Shown here piece after piece: positions 12,810 through 20,107 of a stretch of DNA of 64,000 nt. The position numbers and the translations under genes are program-made. Source of the DNA: Desulforhabdus amnigena (GTDB lineage: Bacteria; Desulfobacterota; Syntrophobacteria; Syntrophobacterales; Syntrophobacteraceae). The DNA lies in NCBI RefSeq assembly GCF_027925305.1, contig NZ_BSDR01000001.1:2941001-3005000 (forward strand), in the 5' to 3' direction. How positions within the stretch are numbered: the first letter of the stretch is position 1; each line of letters starts with the position of its first letter. Under the pieces are notes generated by a model. It did not search any database. It worked only from the letters and a program-made list of their open reading frames with translations, and was not told the origin of the DNA.

Positions 12810-13018
12810 GATCGGTCCCTTTCACGATTCCAGGAAAAGCTTGTTTGACCTTTTCAGCCCTTCTCGATGCAACGGTCCTTTTTTCTGAAACGGTTCTTCT
12901 TTACTGGAAAAAGTTTGCGCATCCGGCGCGTATCGGATCGCCGCTTTCCCGCTGCGGTTGAGGGAAGAGGTAAGTACTTTAACATATGCTCTCAGAAGGG
13001 CAAACGAAAGGAGTGGAG

Positions 13019-13720
13019 ATGCTTTCTTCGAAATCTTCTTTTCCCGGCCCATTTCCCCCTGAAAAAATCTGGATACTCGGAGCGGGACGCTTCGGATTTA
13101 TCGCCGCACAACGTTTGAGCAGGCGCCTGCCCCAAAGCGATTTTCTCGTTATAGAGCTTAGGGAAGATCGGCTGGCAAAGATTCACCGGGACCTGGGTTT
13201 ACCCATCCACGTGGAGGATTCACTTTCTTTCATCTGCAAAAAACCCGTAGCCGACGATATCTGGATTGTCCCTGCCATTCCCGTCCATGTGGCTTTCCAG
13301 TGGATGCTTCATGAACTGAACAAAATCGGCAAAGCCTCTTCCCTTCCCGTTCCTGAAGCGGTGGATCCCCAAGTCCCCAACCCTTATCGGATGCCCAACG
13401 GAACACTCTACGCCAGTTTTGCCACCTTCATCTGCCCCGATTCCTGCAACGAACCCGATGACATCTGCACATATACCAAACAACCCAGGCCGGGCAATCT
13501 TTTCGAACACCTGGCCCGAATCCGGCTTCCGGACTTCAATGTGGCCGTCATCCGCAGCTGGCAACTCGCACCCGGAGTGGGAGGCTATCCCGCAGGGTAT
13601 CTCCGGGAGATATTCACCCAGCAGGTTGCCCGGCAGCCCGGAAACCATCTCATCGCAACCAGTTGCCGGTGTCACGGAGTGATTGACGCCCTCCATTGGT
13701 CGCTGACCGGTCAAAAGTAA
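13019..13720 (+). CDS. Rossmann-like protein with cysteine cluster, function unknown
   Basis: I do not recognise this 233-residue protein as a named family. The first part has a dinucleotide-binding fingerprint, WILGAGRFGFIAAQRL, followed by a beta strand ending FLVIELRED, as in TrkA-N or lactate-dehydrogenase-like folds. The second half holds a CPDSCNEPDDIC cluster (C-x3-C-x6-C) and a late SCRCHG, which could bind a metal or an Fe-S cluster. The start at 13019 has AAAGGAG five bases upstream; an ATG at 12986 is also in frame. Its stop overlaps the convergent beta-barrel gene by 10 bp. Confidence 0.75.
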   Translation: MLSSKSSFPGPFPPEKIWILGAGRFGFIAAQRLSRRLPQSDFLVIELREDRLAKIHRDLGLPIHVEDSLSFICKKPVADDIWIVPAIPVHVAFQWMLHELNKIGKASSLPVPEAVDPQVPNPYRMPNGTLYASFATFICPDSCNEPDDICTYTKQPRPGNLFEHLARIRLPDFNVAVIRSWQLAPGVGGYPAGYLREIFTQQVARQPGNHLIATSCRCHGVIDALHWSLTGQK

Positions 13721-15024
13721 AACTTCCATTCGAAAAAGATGCTGTTGGGAAATGTCCCGAATTCGCTTTGAATTTTGGGAAAAGACGATTCGGCGTTCCC
13801 AGGTGCTTCCCCGAAGGTCAGAGTGGAGCCGACGAGCAGATCCATTTCGTCGGAAAGGGAAATGAATAGAATGGGTTGCACCTGTGCGGAGCCATCCGAA
13901 AGGGAGTGGATTACGGCGCATTGCCCGGTTACGATGGGTTTGAATTCATAGCGGGCAAGCCACCCCAGAAAGTGGCGGCCCATCTGAAGGCTGGAACCGA
14001 ATTGAGTCCTGACAAGGGCCTCATTCAGATGGTCCGGATCTCCTCCACCATTGAACAGGTACTCGAAATCCAGGCTGAAGCTGTTTTCAAACCGTCGCCC
14101 CGCGCCCAGCACAGCTGTAAACTGATCCTCCATCAGCTTTCCTTCCAGCGGAAACGGCAGGTCTTCACTTTGCACGGCCCAGAACCCGGCCATTTCCCCA
14201 CGCATCTGAACCGGCCCCATGTCTCCGACGGCCCCAGCCCCAACCTGCCATCCCCCAAAAATCTTTCCTCCCTGAAAGGCCACATCCCATTCCTTCACAT
14301 TCGAAAACACGCGTCCCAGAAGAGCCGATCCGTACCAGGACGCATCTTCCGGCGCATTGTCACCGCTTGCCCCCTCCCCAATTCCCAGCCGTGGCCCAGC
14401 AGATCCCACCAGGTTGATTCCGGAAAAAAGGCCGAGCGGAATGTCCACTCGAAGAGCATCCACACCCGGTTTGTATTCCCGGTCGAACTGACCGGCATCG
14501 AATGGGAAAAACACATCCAGCGGATTCCAGAAATAGGCTTTGCCAAAGGTTATGGCCTGCCTCCCAAGAGTGATATCGCCCCACTCCGGGGCCCACTTTA
14601 CATTGAACCGGTCCCAAAAGACCGACGAGAAGGCGTTCTCTTTTTCCAAAACATCCCAGCCGGCATCGAAGACCCTGTAGCGGGGAACGTTCCTCGTAAA
14701 CACACTGAAGTCCTGCCCTCCCGAGATACGTTGAGATCCAGCTGTAACGACCTGCACCCAATGGACCTCGTAGGCAAGAGAATCGGTCGGTCTGCCCAAA
14801 GCAGTCAGACGGAGAATGGTTTGAGAGAGAGCGTCGACTTCGTTTTTTCTCGAAAAAGGATACGTACCATCCTGATCCAAAAGGAAGAAAAGAGTCCGGA
14901 TACTGCCGTCCAACCCCAGGACACCCTCCGTGTCCCCCATGAATGCCTGGGAGGAAACGGCCCCCCATGGATGTGCCGTCGACAGGGTACAGAGGAGCAG
15001 TCCGAACCGGAGCACTCGAAGCAT
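13711..15024 (-). CDS. Predicted outer-membrane beta-barrel protein of the LolA/FtsX cluster
   Basis: A 437-residue exported protein. The signal peptide (MLRVLRFGLLLCTLSTAHPW) is followed by alternating hydrophobic/polar strands with many Gly, Trp, Tyr and Phe, and the sequence ends in NSIFFEWKFYF with a C-terminal aromatic, as in outer-membrane barrels. WGDITLGRQAITFGKAYFWN resembles DUF1302/alginate-export-like porins, but I would not name a family. The frame also allows ATG 15063, but those codons look like a TGAGCC-rich intergenic repeat, so 15024 is preferred. It is the last gene of the ABC operon, 109 bp after the ATPase gene. Confidence 0.8.
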   Translation of the reverse strand: MLRVLRFGLLLCTLSTAHPWGAVSSQAFMGDTEGVLGLDGSIRTLFFLLDQDGTYPFSRKNEVDALSQTILRLTALGRPTDSLAYEVHWVQVVTAGSQRISGGQDFSVFTRNVPRYRVFDAGWDVLEKENAFSSVFWDRFNVKWAPEWGDITLGRQAITFGKAYFWNPLDVFFPFDAGQFDREYKPGVDALRVDIPLGLFSGINLVGSAGPRLGIGEGASGDNAPEDASWYGSALLGRVFSNVKEWDVAFQGGKIFGGWQVGAGAVGDMGPVQMRGEMAGFWAVQSEDLPFPLEGKLMEDQFTAVLGAGRRFENSFSLDFEYLFNGGGDPDHLNEALVRTQFGSSLQMGRHFLGWLARYEFKPIVTGQCAVIHSLSDGSAQVQPILFISLSDEMDLLVGSTLTFGEAPGNAESSFPKIQSEFGTFPNSIFFEWKFYF

Positions 15025-15133
15025 CAACCGGGCTGGCGCTTTGGTTTGCAGCTCAGGGCTCATGGTTTACGGCTCAGGGGGAAGATTGAACGGGTACAAG
15101 AAACAAGCCTCCGGGTCGCGGCTCGGCATTCAT

Positions 15134-15841
15134 TCATGCCTCTGCAGGACAGCATGCGCTGTCCTCGATGATGAGTCCGTCCCTGAGCCGAATAAGTCTT
15201 CGAGCGCGGCGCATAACCGCCCGGTCGTGTGTGGAAAAAAGAAAGGTCGCCCCTTTTTCTTCATTTAGGCGGAGCATGAGGTCGAGGAGTGCGCTTCCCG
15301 TTTCCGAATCCACATTGGCGGTGGGTTCGTCCGCCAGGACCAATGCGGGTTCGGGTACGATGGCCCGGGCGATGGCGACGCGCTGCTGCTGACCTCCGGA
15401 AAGCTCGCGGGGGAAACGGTTTTCCAAGCCATCCAGGCCCACCTCTTTCAAAACATGCATGACCCTCTCCCTCCGCTCCTGTCTGGGAAGGCCCTGAAGC
15501 ATGAGCACATATTCCGCATTTTCATAGGCGGTCAAAATGGGAATGAGATTGTAGGTCTGGAAAATGAAACCGATGCGATCTCTTCGAAGCCGGCTCAACT
15601 CGCTTCCCGACAGGCGGGTGAGGTCGTGACCTTCCACCAAAACACTACCGGATGTGGGTCGATCGAGTCCACCGATGATGTTCAACAGGGTGGTCTTGCC
15701 GGAACCGGAGGGTCCGGCCATGGCGGCAAATTCACCGGATTTCAGGACCATATTCACCCCACGCAGCGCTCGGGTGACGACGCCGCTTTCGCCAAAATCC
15801 CGGGTGACTTGAATGGTCTCAACGATCTTGGAGTTGGACAC
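15134..15841 (-). CDS. ABC transporter ATPase, LolD/MacB type
   Basis: 235-residue ATPase with Walker A GPSGSGKTT (43-51), signature LSGGQ (147-151), Walker B ALVLADEP (166-173) and switch STHD. The phrase GGLDRPTSGSVLVEG, soon after Walker A, is typical of the LolD/MacB/FtsE group, whose members drive extraction of lipoproteins or other envelope substrates instead of import. GTG 15841 has AAGGAAG five bases upstream. It lies 10 bp after the second FtsX permease gene. Confidence 0.9.
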   Translation of the reverse strand: MSNSKIVETIQVTRDFGESGVVTRALRGVNMVLKSGEFAAMAGPSGSGKTTLLNIIGGLDRPTSGSVLVEGHDLTRLSGSELSRLRRDRIGFIFQTYNLIPILTAYENAEYVLMLQGLPRQERRERVMHVLKEVGLDGLENRFPRELSGGQQQRVAIARAIVPEPALVLADEPTANVDSETGSALLDLMLRLNEEKGATFLFSTHDRAVMRRARRLIRLRDGLIIEDSACCPAEA

Positions 15842-15851
15842 GCGTTCTTCC

Positions 15852-17078
15852 TTATCGCAGCATTTCCGCTATGTTCAGACGTCCAACACGCCGCATGGGG
15901 GCAAAACTCAGGAAGAGTGTCGCCCCTAGTACAATTCCGGCCACCCCGAAGAGCATTGCAGTCGTGAGCTGTGCATAAATCCTTGTGGATATGGTAAAAC
16001 CGGAAATGGTCACTCCTTCGGGAAGCAAAAACCCGAAATCCAGCCCCCAACGCTCCATAGCCAACGAAGCGGCACCTCCCAGGAAAGCCCCCAGAGCACA
16101 TCCCATCAACCCGATATATACCGATTCCATGAACATCTGTCTTTTGAGCTGAACAAGAGGCGTCCCCAGGGCAAGGAGCACGGCAAACTCGTGCTCCCTT
16201 TCCACGGCGGACATGAGCAATGTGTTGAAGATGGTAAAGAGAATAATGACGAACAGAAGTCCCTGAAAAACCCAGTTGGATGCCCGGTCTATTCGAATGT
16301 AGGCCGCCAATTCCGGCAAAACGGTCTGCCACGGGAAGACACCGATTTTTCTTGTATTCACCAAAGCCTCGATGGCGCCCAGCACTTCCTGCTGGGCATC
16401 CGCCCGTTTCAAAATCACTCCCAACTGAGTGGCGCTGTCCGGGGGCAATCCGAAAAGCCCGCGAGCTGCCGATAGGGGAATCTGGATCAAGTATCCATCA
16501 ATTTCGTCCGATCCTGTGCTGAAAATGCCTCTGACCCGGTAAAGCTCTTCCACCAATTCCCCGGAAGCATTATTGGTGGTGAGAACCAGTTTACTTCCTT
16601 CTTTCAACTTCAACCTTTTGGCCAGGAGCGCCCCCACAACGACCAGGTGCATATCTCCATCTTTCAGGTATTCCCCCGCCACCATGCGCCGGGCAAGAGG
16701 AGAGGTCTTGAGCTCCATGGACGGTTCCACTCCCATGATGGAAACGCCTACTCCTCCCGCGCCGGACATTGCCACCCCCTGCCCCAGCACAAGCAGCTTG
16801 GTTCGCTCCACGGAGTCCATGGCTTCAATGTTTCGCCTCAAACCTTCCACGCCGGAGATCATAAGATCGACAGCAGGCGCGATCGTGTAATCGGGATGCT
16901 CCAAAGTGATGTGGCCAGCCTGCATTCGCACGGCATCATTGACAATCTGATCGTAAACCCCTTCTCCGAGGGCGATGAAAAAGATGGCTACGCTCAATCC
17001 CAAACCGATAGAGAGGATCGTGATCAATGTTCTGCGCCTGTTACGCCACAAAGATCGCCAGGCCAGTCGACTCGTCAT
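15852..17078 (-). CDS. FtsX/LolCE-type ABC permease (second)
   Basis: 408-residue permease with the LolC/MacB layout: one N-terminal membrane helix after the basic motif WRSLWRNRRRTLITILSIG, a periplasmic domain of about 230 residues, and three C-terminal helices ending in a cytoplasmic RRVGRLNIAEMLR tail. The phrase EREHEFAVLLALGT is the coupling-helix motif for contact with the ATPase. Together with the neighbouring permease it would make a heterodimer like LolCE. Confidence 0.9.
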   Translation of the reverse strand: MTSRLAWRSLWRNRRRTLITILSIGLGLSVAIFFIALGEGVYDQIVNDAVRMQAGHITLEHPDYTIAPAVDLMISGVEGLRRNIEAMDSVERTKLLVLGQGVAMSGAGGVGVSIMGVEPSMELKTSPLARRMVAGEYLKDGDMHLVVVGALLAKRLKLKEGSKLVLTTNNASGELVEELYRVRGIFSTGSDEIDGYLIQIPLSAARGLFGLPPDSATQLGVILKRADAQQEVLGAIEALVNTRKIGVFPWQTVLPELAAYIRIDRASNWVFQGLLFVIILFTIFNTLLMSAVEREHEFAVLLALGTPLVQLKRQMFMESVYIGLMGCALGAFLGGAASLAMERWGLDFGFLLPEGVTISGFTISTRIYAQLTTAMLFGVAGIVLGATLFLSFAPMRRVGRLNIAEMLR

Positions 17079-17145
17079 CGCTTCCCTTCACTCACTGTTT
17101 CCCTGAAAGTCTATCGCCGCGACCATCAGCCCAAACAGCGGACTC

Positions 17146-18363
17146 TCAAACATGGTAAAGACTTTTCACCGGATCCAGTCGCGCGGAGATGGAAGCCGGA
17201 TAGAGGGCCGCCAGAATGCAAACCACCCATATGACGAGGACCGGCTCCAAGACAGCCCGAAAAGTGAGGGAAGCACGCCACACGGGATCAAAAGCGATAC
17301 CCGAAACAGTATATTCCCCCGCAAAGCCGGTAGTGTCCAGTCCGACATCCTGCAGAACCCAGGAAACGGCAACTCCCGCCACGACCCCGACGACAGTGGA
17401 AAGAAACGCCAGCAGCCAGGCCTCCATGGTGACGTCCCGCACAATGCGCCAGGGAGAAGTCCCCAATGCCTTCAGAAGCCCGAACTCGTGAATGCGCTCG
17501 TAGGTCGCCATGAGCATGGTGTTGAGGACTCCCAGACCCGCAGCAAGATAGAAAATGGCTCCAAAGACGGACATGCTCACATCCGAAATCTGAAGCATGT
17601 CGGAGAGCGTCGGAAGGAGCTCTCTCCAGGTTTTTACTTCCGCCCCGGGAACCGCCTGAATCAGGCTCTCTTTCAGAGCTGCCAGAGGGACCCGTCCTCC
17701 TGTATTCACTACAATTTCATGAACACCGCTCCTCATGACAAAAAGATCGCGAAAATCATCGATATGCATGATCGCAGCGCTCCGGTCCACCCCTTCCCCC
17801 GCAGCTTTCAGGATTCCCGAAACCGTGAAGAGATCATTTCCCAGGGAGCCGTCCGCCGCCTGAACCAGCACTACAATTTCCGATCCCACGTGAGCGTTCA
17901 ACGATCGCGCAAGTTTTCTTCCGAGCACCAATCCTCTATGAGCTTTGGAACTGAGATAAACCCCTTCTCCCATGTGCTCCGCCAACCGCAGAACGGCTCT
18001 TTCCTTATCCGGGTCCACTCCCCAGAACATGGCGCCGGCCGACTTGGTTCTGCAACTCACCAAGCCGTATCCGTAAGTTCGCGGAACAGCGCCGAAGGAG
18101 CGATCTTTCAGCTTTTGAAGGATCGCTTCGGGATTTTCCAGTGTTTTGTAAATCGAACGGTCTTCGAGGTATCCGGGAGCGTGAAGCTGGGCTTCACCCG
18201 TACTCAGTTGCGTCGCGTTTTGGACCGCCTGGTCCAAAAGCCCCTGCATCAGGGCGTAAGTGGCGATGAGGATGAAAGTGTTCATAGAAACGGCCGCCAT
18301 AGTGATGGCCGTCCTTCTTCGCTCCCTCCAGATATTTCGCCATGCCCTCTTCAGAACGCTCAC
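17146..18363 (-). CDS. FtsX/LolCE-type ABC permease (first)
   Basis: 405-residue permease, paralogous to its downstream neighbour: N-terminal WRNIWRERRRTAITMAAVSM helix, large periplasmic domain, a YERIHEFGLLKALGTSP coupling motif near residue 290, and three C-terminal helices. The end, LDPVKSLYHV, is typical of the family. GTG 18363 follows AGGGGGG. It starts 8 bp after the LolA-like gene stops, so carrier and permeases are co-transcribed. Confidence 0.9.
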   Translation of the reverse strand: MSVLKRAWRNIWRERRRTAITMAAVSMNTFILIATYALMQGLLDQAVQNATQLSTGEAQLHAPGYLEDRSIYKTLENPEAILQKLKDRSFGAVPRTYGYGLVSCRTKSAGAMFWGVDPDKERAVLRLAEHMGEGVYLSSKAHRGLVLGRKLARSLNAHVGSEIVVLVQAADGSLGNDLFTVSGILKAAGEGVDRSAAIMHIDDFRDLFVMRSGVHEIVVNTGGRVPLAALKESLIQAVPGAEVKTWRELLPTLSDMLQISDVSMSVFGAIFYLAAGLGVLNTMLMATYERIHEFGLLKALGTSPWRIVRDVTMEAWLLAFLSTVVGVVAGVAVSWVLQDVGLDTTGFAGEYTVSGIAFDPVWRASLTFRAVLEPVLVIWVVCILAALYPASISARLDPVKSLYHV

Positions 18364-18371
18364 AGCCCCCC

Positions 18372-19178
18372 CTACTTCTGAAGATTCCGGATGGAAAAGA
18401 TTTCATCACTAAGATCGAGATCGAAAGCGATCTCCCGGTAGGTCACTTCCGTTCTCTCACCGGGCTTATCCGCGGGCACAACCACCATCCTGGCCGGCAG
18501 GGTGCGGCCGGAAAAAGTTCGGACATCCGAAAACGTCATGGTTCTCGCAAGATGAAGTTCTTCATCGAAATAGGCGCTTTCTAGCGGCAGATAGTCCTGA
18601 AGCCGCACTACGACCACCACCTTTCCCCAGACCACAGGAGCATCCGGCTTGGGAATACAGGTGACTTCCACAATGTCTTTCCCTGCCCGCCGTCCTTCGA
18701 AGGTAACCTCAAAGTCGTAATCCTCCACAAAGCGGCTCTCCTTCACCAAGTCGTCGTTGGTGAAATGAGACCCCATCCAGGAAGCGGACATCATGGACGA
18801 CGGAAGTTTGATCACCCTTTTTACCTTGGGAAGATAATTCCAGATTTCGTTTCCGGAACGCAGGGTGGCCGTATCCTTTTCTTTTATGGGAGCCAGGATT
18901 TTGATGAGGGACTTTTCTTTTCCCTTGGACCAGAATTCCAGCGAGAGTGTCCTCTTCCAATGAGCGGTGACCACCACCATGGTCATTTCACCATGACTCG
19001 ACTCCCCCCGGTAGAGATCGTCCATCCGATCCAGAATTTCCCTGGCCGTAACGGCTGAAGCGGGTGTTGCAGGAAAGCAGAAAAAGCAGAGGACCGCCAG
19101 GGAACTCACTATCGCCAATATCCCGCGGGAAAAAGGACTGCCACTGTTTCGGCCATATTTCGAGGAAAACCAGGTCAT
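18372..19178 (-). CDS. LolA-like outer-membrane lipoprotein-sorting protein
   Basis: 268 residues with a signal peptide cleaved near PASAVTA (about residue 43), so periplasmic. The body carries features of the LolA_like family (PF17131): LEFWSKGKEKSLIKILAP, NEIWNYLPKVKRVIKLP and the hallmark MGSHFTNDDLVKES. Members have a LolA fold that carries lipid or lipoprotein between membranes; no substrate is established for this subfamily. Its start overlaps the ADP-ribosylglycohydrolase stop (ATGA), and it leads directly into two LolCE-like permeases, which supports a shuttle role. Confidence 0.88.
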   Translation of the reverse strand: MTWFSSKYGRNSGSPFSRGILAIVSSLAVLCFFCFPATPASAVTAREILDRMDDLYRGESSHGEMTMVVVTAHWKRTLSLEFWSKGKEKSLIKILAPIKEKDTATLRSGNEIWNYLPKVKRVIKLPSSMMSASWMGSHFTNDDLVKESRFVEDYDFEVTFEGRRAGKDIVEVTCIPKPDAPVVWGKVVVVVRLQDYLPLESAYFDEELHLARTMTFSDVRTFSGRTLPARMVVVPADKPGERTEVTYREIAFDLDLSDEIFSIRNLQK

Positions 19179-20107
19179 CTTTCAGCTCGTCCGATCTTTT
19201 CCAAAAGATCCACAATGTGCTGCGCCTGTTTCAAATCGGAGATCCATTCTCGTGGAATGGCTTCCTTCCCCAAATGAGCGCCGAGAATCATTCCCACAAT
19301 AGCCCCCCTGGCTGCAGAATCCCCACCCGCCATGACATTTTCAACCAGAGCCTCACGAAGATCGTCTTCGTATCGCGAAAGGAGATGCACCACGGAGGGA
19401 AAAGCTCCATTGCTGTCACAGCTTTGGCCAAAATGCATGATGGCGTCTCTCGTGCCGGTTCCTTTGCTTTCCAGGCCCACTTCCAGCATCTTTGCAAAGG
19501 GGGTTCCCTCGAAAGACTCTTCCCTCACTTCCCGCATGGCCGCCACGGGCGAACGCCCGTGAAGCACCTTCCAGGCAACACGGCCGAAAAACTCTGCACT
19601 GCCTATTACCAATGGCGTGTTATGCGTCATTGCCGTCTGAGTCTTGACGCTGGAAACGAGTTTTTCCAGGTCTTCCCGGTAACGGTAGACCAGTGGAGCA
19701 ATGCGTGCGGCCCCGCCCAGGTCCAGGGAAAAGGAACCGGATTCCGCCGGCCCTTTTCCCGAGGCAAAATTCACGAGTGTGGCCTTGGTGGCCTCGTCGA
19801 AATAACCATGGTAATTTTTGAAAAGTGCTTGCCAGCTCTCGGAAAAATGGTGGAGATCGAACTCGGAACGATCGGCAAGGGATTCCAGAAGGACTAGGGT
19901 TTGATCTCCGTAGTGAGTGAATTCACCCTTATCTTTGGTGGGATGATAGGATTCCTTGAGGGGCTTGAGCAGGTGTTCCACCCGCCCGAACTTTTGTTCG
20001 ATGATCTCCGTCTCGTAAATCCAATGGGCTCCCAGGGCCAGGGAATCGCCGGCAAAGGAAGCCATGACCATCGCTACGGCTTTTTCCTTTTTCATCGCCT
20101 TCGTCAT
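19175..20107 (-). CDS. ADP-ribosylglycohydrolase family protein (crystallin J1-like variant)
   Basis: 310 residues with the ARH/DraG all-helical layout: N-terminal SFAGDSLALGAHWIYE, a middle HYGDQTLVLLESL, and C-terminal GGDSAARGAIVGMILGAHLG. In active hydrolases the equivalent metal-binding motifs are usually TDDT and GGDTDT; here they read YGDQT and GGDSAA, so some Mg2+-ligand aspartates are replaced. This pattern resembles the J1-crystallin branch. It may bind ADP-ribose or a related ligand without standard catalysis. AAAGGAG lies upstream of ATG 20107. It is the first gene of the Lol-like operon. Confidence 0.85.
   Translation of the reverse strand: MTKAMKKEKAVAMVMASFAGDSLALGAHWIYETEIIEQKFGRVEHLLKPLKESYHPTKDKGEFTHYGDQTLVLLESLADRSEFDLHHFSESWQALFKNYHGYFDEATKATLVNFASGKGPAESGSFSLDLGGAARIAPLVYRYREDLEKLVSSVKTQTAMTHNTPLVIGSAEFFGRVAWKVLHGRSPVAAMREVREESFEGTPFAKMLEVGLESKGTGTRDAIMHFGQSCDSNGAFPSVVHLLSRYEDDLREALVENVMAGGDSAARGAIVGMILGAHLGKEAIPREWISDLKQAQHIVDLLEKIGRAER

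Follow-up and report, generated by a model that had tools for sequence, protein, structure and literature searches.

A candidate trans-envelope ABC exporter with a LolA-like carrier and its own outer-membrane barrel in Desulforhabdus amnigena

The closest genetically studied system to the one considered here is AmeABCD, which exports monoterpenes in Castellaniella defragrans: when it is deleted, monoterpene tolerance falls and more Nile Red accumulates (PMC6394551). The Type VII ATP-binding cassette (ABC) transporter YbbAP-TesA has been proposed to extract hydrophobic compounds (PMC12646458), and in Thalassolituus oleivorans the TOL_3187/TOL_3188 pair, an MMPL/LolA-like protein and an adjacent porin gene, is upregulated on the alkane n-C28 (PMC6304351), an induction that is ambiguous as a sign of transport direction. 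Further, a highly expressed cluster of porin-like, DUF1329, and MMPL genes in Desulfobacterota of a benzene-degrading culture (PMC13101534) hints at a link to hydrocarbons in this phylum. Here, five adjacent genes are described from a 64,000-nucleotide stretch of the Desulforhabdus amnigena genome (contig NZ_BSDR01000001.1, positions 2,941,001 to 3,005,000; hereafter the window, meaning this whole stretch). They encode a LolA-like periplasmic carrier, two FtsX permeases (FtsX1 and FtsX2), a LolD-type ATPase, and a predicted outer-membrane beta-barrel, and together they probably form a trans-envelope ABC exporter of a hydrophobic or amphiphilic molecule. Such an exporter would be the ABC-driven counterpart of those that combine a resistance-nodulation-division (RND) pump with a LolA-fold protein and a DUF1302 protein, as AmeABCD does.

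From gene content and from these relatives, we infer that FtsX1, FtsX2, and the ATPase would assemble into a heterodimeric Type VII (LolCDE/MacB-class) ABC transporter that uses ATP to lift the molecule from the inner membrane. The carrier, a soluble LolA-like protein, would then take over the molecule without a LolC-type Hook and cross the periplasm, and the dedicated DUF1302-related barrel would receive it for transfer into or through the outer membrane. That the cargo may be hydrophobic or the flow outward is suggested by the AmeABCD deletion phenotype, the extraction proposed for YbbAP-TesA, and the TetR-like genes that neighbor the unit in some lineages, where they would suit ligand-induced expression. 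If this model is correct, the five genes represent a conserved, multi-phylum, and so far nameless envelope pathway with all the parts for moving hydrophobes from the inner to the outer membrane, and many genes annotated as 'outer membrane lipoprotein-sorting protein' would not serve lipoproteins. The set would also offer a compact system in which to study Hook-free docking of LolA-fold carriers and the transfer of lipids or other hydrophobes to porin-like barrels.

Layout and conservation of the five-gene unit

The host genome is a single contig of 4.54 Mb. The genes of the unit, followed by the two genes that flank it, are as follows.

18372..19178, minus strand: LolA-like periplasmic carrier of 268 residues (LolA_like, PF17131, 170 bits with a cut-off of 30; signal peptide called by eye)
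17146..18363, minus strand: FtsX1, a LolC/E-type permease of a clade of its own, without Hook (Pfam FtsX and MacB_PCD; lolCE 106 bits)
15852..17078, minus strand: FtsX2, a second LolC/E-type permease of a separate clade, without Hook (Pfam FtsX and MacB_PCD; lolCE 100 bits)
15134..15841, minus strand: LolD/FtsE/MacB-type ATPase of 235 residues with a GTG start (Pfam ABC_tran 126.5 bits; LolD model 208 bits)
13711..15063, minus strand: predicted outer-membrane beta-barrel of 450 residues with C-terminus ...KFYF (predicted OprD/AlgE-like fold, remote DUF1302 relative; no Pfam family)
19175..20107, minus strand: ADP-ribosylglycohydrolase (ARH)-fold protein with altered metal motifs (Pfam ADP_ribosyl_GH 187 bits), an older adjoining gene judged to lie outside the system
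12986..13720, plus strand: TrkA_N-like gene (20.6 bits, under its Pfam cut-off) on the other flank of the insertion site, outside the system

The initial annotation had described six open reading frames (ORFs) here, all on the minus strand, as one unit; ORF positions and Pfam matches bear out the six genes, and the five from carrier to barrel do form a unit, whereas the ARH gene is not a component of it. From ARH through carrier, FtsX1, FtsX2, and ATPase to barrel, the intergenic gaps are -4 (an ATGA overlap), 8, 67, 10, and 70 bp. The kilobases holding the five genes have a guanine-plus-cytosine content of 53-57%, compared with 46-51% further out, and the kilobase of the ARH gene itself has 54%. 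This profile is consistent with acquisition of the five genes, although it is too weak to serve as an argument.

A scan with the carrier alignment, at one genome per species, yielded at least 583 relatives, of which the best 80 were kept as loci; 57 of these, having at least 5.6 kb of downstream sequence, were testable. In 50 of the 57, the order LolA-FtsX1-FtsX2-ATPase-barrel was kept on one strand with the barrel as the last gene, so that the combination of carrier, engine, and barrel noticed at first in a single genome is a conserved one. Complete units occur in records titled Deltaproteobacteria/Desulfobacterota, Myxococcota, Gemmatimonadota, Acidobacteria, Nitrospinales, Nitrospiraceae, and Gammaproteobacteria; these phylum labels are taken from the record titles, and nearly all of the records are metagenome bins. 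Vibrio campbellii LJC015 and Persicobacter sp. JZB09, the latter a member of the Bacteroidota, share this five-gene layout, and their barrels score 52 and 95 bits. At E 1e-50, the carrier subfamily was detected in 54 of the 395 genomes of a phylum sample, indicating a patchy distribution. Of the 80 loci, 12 have a TetR-like gene no more than 2.5 kb upstream of the unit (in four the score is weak, 41-75 bits), and the Persicobacter sp. JZB09 unit has one directly upstream.

Several variant arrangements were also encountered. In one genome (G006, from about position 10983 of L047 to 8213 of L193), an island of about 7 kb carrying a gene of the phage integrase family interrupts FtsX2 in a related operon; the ATPase and barrel genes lie beyond the island, and matches to FtsX2 residues 347-376 occur to either side of it. 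Three loci (L143, L161, and L179) have two long ORFs of about 600 residues each with ATPase matches 1-5 kb upstream of the unit, both of which in L143 are ABC half-transporters by Pfam. Two others (L160 and L173) have an additional ATPase and FtsX pair upstream as well as two FtsX2-like genes within the operon, a possible engine duplication. A degenerate-looking copy (L057; G008:C59:1433-3977), in which the carrier gene has an in-frame stop and the permease ORFs are short, suggests that the system was lost in that lineage.

Relation to the Lol system and to porins

The host genome encodes a single protein above the lolCE cut-off (435 bits, at C1:3922660). This canonical LolC/F is flanked by a gene for a class II tRNA synthetase (of the D, K, N type; lysine by eye) and by a LolD-type ATPase gene that is followed by a BamA-type gene, the latter encoding an Omp85 protein with five POTRA stretches. 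A canonical LolA (PF03548, 82 bits) is encoded at C1:2495469. Since canonical LolA and LolC/F are encoded elsewhere in the genome, the five-gene set is not the housekeeping Lol system; that identity is ruled out, and the initial proposal of a dedicated set distinct from housekeeping Lol holds. Exactly one canonical LolC/F was found at E 1e-80 in each of the 21 genomes searched. Both permeases of the window fall short of the lolCE equivalog cut-off (362 bits, NCBIfam), with 106 and 100 bits, as does the ATPase of the LolD cut-off (307.75 bits, NCBIfam), with 208 bits. Judged by these profile scores, the permeases and ATPase are relatives rather than members of the lipoprotein-releasing equivalogs.

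Phylogeny also sets the permeases apart. In a tree of 60 sequences, which sampled one third of the homologues and 12 of 21 canonical LolC/F proteins, FtsX1 (25 sequences), FtsX2 (23), and canonical LolC/F (12) formed three separate groups, with support of 88/79 for FtsX1, 99/97 for FtsX2, and 100/100 for FtsX1 and FtsX2 together apart from the canonical proteins. Such a two-clade pattern would be expected from an ancient, obligate heterodimer. The LolC Hook was present in all 21 canonical LolC/F proteins and absent from all 137 permease homologues. The segment that bears it measures 26 residues in every one of the 21 canonical proteins, as opposed to 21 residues in 72 of 72 FtsX1 proteins, 21 (64 proteins) or 22 (1 protein) in the 65 FtsX2 proteins, and 21 in both permeases of the window. 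Without a Hook, any docking of the carrier on the permeases must take another form. The combination of FtsX and a MacB-like periplasmic domain with an ATPase of LolD/FtsE type is that of Type VII (FtsX/MacB/LolE) ABC transporters, and the closest solved structures for the permeases are LolF (the nearest to FtsX1), LolE/C, MacB, and YtrF. Matches to anti-phage defense systems in PADLOC were weak or general, such as mad3 at 101 bits for the ATPase and CARF-LolE at 34-37 bits for the permeases, and the idea of a role in defense was set aside.

These observations bear on the possibility that the five genes constitute a second lipoprotein route, in which the LolA-like and LolCDE-like components handle a particular subset of lipoproteins, to be inserted or exposed at the surface by the barrel. 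The nearest solved permeases, LolF and LolC/E, and the placement of the carrier in the LolA superfamily would agree with such a route. However, the Hook that is essential for lipoprotein trafficking in Escherichia coli (PMC10865981) is missing from both permeases and from 137 of 137 homologues, the scores lie far under the lolCE and LolD cut-offs, and related carriers are also paired with RND pumps; a lipoprotein route is therefore regarded as unlikely.

The solved relatives of the carrier are 3buu, 3bk5, 4z48, and 9tp6, and a SWMGSHFTNDD stretch is conserved in the carrier alignment (A2). For the barrel, an early model from 7 sequences was poor (predicted local distance difference test score, pLDDT, of 62) and was replaced by one built from 43 homologues (pLDDT 87.9; predicted template modeling score 0.84), the secondary-structure list of which has 19 strand elements. 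Among the matches listed, which give the nearest folds, structural alignment placed OccAB4 and a BenF-like porin highest (both Z 23.6), together with other OprD-family porins and the exporter AlgE (Z 23.0); Foldseek ranked AlgE first. Both OprD-family porins and AlgE are 18-stranded. Sequence identity to these matches is about 10%, so that they support the fold and not a function. The C-terminus reads ...KFYF, and a terminal aromatic residue is the usual signature of outer-membrane barrels. Profile comparison with DUF1302 (PF06980) gave a strong match (hhalign 98.2%, E 3e-14, 352 columns); at the DUF1302 gathering score no match was found for the barrel of the window, and one of the 43 homologues matched at E 0.0057. 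On the profile comparison, the barrel is a remote DUF1302 homologue.

The porin-like fold raises the question of direction. An uptake or retrograde system could be envisaged in which a hydrophobic nutrient enters through the OprD-like barrel, travels inward on the carrier, and reaches the inner membrane by way of the ABC transporter. The top structural matches of the barrel are OprD/Occ porins and a BenF-like porin, and the induction by n-C28 of the Thalassolituus MMPL/LolA-like protein and its porin gene (PMC6304351) could be read in the same way. Against this, the work described for Type VII ABC transporters, membrane extraction included, takes place on the periplasmic side (PMC12646458), the closest genetics, those of AmeABCD, point to export (PMC6394551), and AlgE matches the barrel about equally well. 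On this evidence, inward transport is considered improbable, and export by the five genes remains the preferred interpretation.

Still, several observations count against the exporter model or leave room within it. OprD-type barrels are mostly uptake porins, so that inward flow is still allowed. Seven of the 57 testable loci are incomplete: four (L120, L151, L166, and L168) break off at a run of N, and three (L124, L164, and L181) have no ATPase or barrel gene and no assembly gap. Support for the FtsX1 clade is moderate (88/79), and the Vibrio and Persicobacter permeases do not sort clearly into the FtsX1 and FtsX2 clades. No TetR gene lies beside the copy in the window. A survey of the flanks (41 of 64 upstream and 21 of 37 downstream ORFs; short ORFs and near-duplicate TetR genes were omitted) pointed to no substrate: besides TetR (6 of the 41 upstream ORFs), no recurrent family seemed connected with the unit, and P-type ATPases and RecX each account for 3 of the 41.

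It could also be argued that the carrier and ABC transporter do no more than build the barrel of their own unit or position it in the outer membrane, given that the unit ends with the barrel gene in 50 of 57 loci. The host genome has a BamA-type gene, outer-membrane barrels are normally assembled by the barrel assembly machinery (BAM), and the cavities of LolA folds bind acyl chains, all of which make a pure assembly role very unlikely.

The ARH neighbor and the insertion site

In a second genome of the same genus (G001), the genes between 9.5 and 30 kb of the window are collinear and the five genes are absent. The stop codons of the ARH gene and the convergent TrkA_N-like gene are 20 bp apart in that genome and 51 bp apart in a genome of another genus (G005), compared with 5,454 bp in the window, and no carrier match was found anywhere in either genome at E 0.001. 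In all three, the ARH gene lies near mazG and a homologue of a 188-residue ORF, with about 2.4 kb between in G005. The simplest reading is that the five genes were inserted between the ARH and TrkA_N-like genes in the lineage of the window; their loss in two lineages is possible instead. With an insertion, the ATGA overlap between ARH and carrier, which is present as first reported, would be a product of the junction. By virtue of this overlap, the two genes are likely co-translated in the host genome.

Conservation of the ARH gene as a neighbor or component, expected at first, was not found. Among 59 genomes, 20 have ARH orthologues, 12 have the carrier (E below 1e-80), and 3 have both, where 4.1 would be expected; in the other two genomes that hold both, the genes are on different contigs. 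This count omits short ARH pieces (G045 and G052) and the degenerate carrier of G008, a genome that also has an ARH on another contig, and adding these cases leaves the picture unchanged. No ARH was found among the ORFs of the best 80 carrier loci, 69 of which have at least 2 kb and 52 at least 5 kb of upstream sequence. A system of all six genes, with the ARH protein as a regulator or modifier of the transporter, as the ATGA overlap and probable co-translation might suggest, is thus ruled out as a conserved unit, and has next to no likelihood, given the empty sites in G001 and G005, the lack of excess co-occurrence, and the absence of ARH beside the related operons examined.

The altered metal ligands ascribed to the ARH protein are real: it belongs to the ARH fold family by Pfam and carries THYGDQ and GGDSAA in place of the TDDT and GGDxDT motifs of ordinary paralogues. 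Among its orthologues, THYGDQ is found in 17 of 17 others that cover the site and GGD(S/N)A(A/G)R in 19 of 19, while most distant paralogues carry TDDT and GGDxDT and two (L087 and L093) carry neither form. The clade with conserved altered motifs (window 19175-20107 and L067-L085) is spread through the order, and its members, to judge by these motifs, are probably not canonical ADP-ribose hydrolases. A paralogue with the ordinary TDDT motif is encoded in the host genome (L063, 1322-2254), about 2.4 kb upstream of the housekeeping lolC.

Distant carriers and comparison with described systems

Eighteen distant PF17131 loci were inspected, chosen because they were at hand and not as a census. Carrier, DUF1302-like barrel, and engine occur together in eight of them, with three kinds of engine: an MMPL/RND pump (L060, L238, L239, and L240), an ATPase with one FtsX (L058 and L059), and an ATPase with a fused double FtsX (L064 and L065). 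The barrel scores above the DUF1302 cut-off in L058, L059, L238, L239, and, narrowly, L240, and below it in L060, L064, and L065. We offer, as a tentative generalization with not quite even prospects, that a LolA-like carrier and a DUF1302-type barrel make up a general two-part shuttle that runs on interchangeable engines (RND, single FtsX, fused FtsX, or the Hook-less FtsX1/FtsX2 heterodimer), and that the version in the window is one more ABC-powered route, in addition to Lol, Lpt, and MacAB-TolC, that takes hydrophobes from the inner to the outer membrane in many phyla. The other ten loci did not show the full set, mostly owing to short flanks, and count among the observations against the exporter model: eight are under 4 kb (L039 shows a barrel and L040 an FtsX), L057 is the degenerate-looking copy, and L061 shows neither barrel nor engine.

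The initial annotation held that no characterized system has this makeup. Of the five-gene set itself, no published description was found in a partial search of the open-access literature (preprints outside its scope); the statement is tempered by an RND-driven analogue, AmeABCD (PMC6394551), and by a predicted Borrelia cluster (PMC13078400). The parts are already known, and genetic work exists on the RND-driven version; what we have not seen described is a version with a heterodimeric, Hook-less ABC transporter and its own barrel.

LolABCDE and LolDF share LolC/E-type permeases, a LolD-type ATPase, and a LolA-superfamily carrier with the set in the window, which differs in having no Hook, scores below the cut-offs, its own barrel, TetR in some lineages, and a canonical system coexisting with it. 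With respect to MacAB-TolC, neither a periplasmic adaptor nor a TolC-type duct was found by Pfam among the five genes, and the barrel is predicted to be porin-like. YbbAP-TesA differs in its 10-helix permease and hydrolase partner, and the available part of its description mentions no LolA-like carrier or barrel (PMC12646458). The Thalassolituus pair shares a LolA-like domain, an inner-membrane engine, and a neighboring porin gene, but MMPL and LolA-like domains are joined there in one protein, which is induced on a long alkane (PMC6304351). The Borrelia BBJ23-29 cluster shares a LolA-like protein, a LolE-like permease, an ATPase, and an outer-membrane barrel and is predicted to transport a non-polar ligand outward; it differs in its Omp85 barrel, single homodimeric permease, and TPR proteins, and it rests on prediction (PMC13078400). 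AmeABCD resembles the unit in the window in bringing together, within a single cassette, a LolA-superfamily periplasmic protein, a DUF1302 outer-membrane protein, and an engine in the inner membrane, and its cargo is hydrophobic; it differs in its RND (HAE3) pump, its DUF1329 carrier (AmeB), and a fourth, YCF48-like protein (COG4447) (PMC6394551). The unit in the window has no RND (HAE3/MMPL) pump. In its place are two FtsX permeases and an ATPase, combined with relatives of the AmeABCD pair: a carrier of PF17131 rather than DUF1329 and a more divergent barrel that scores under the DUF1302 cut-off.

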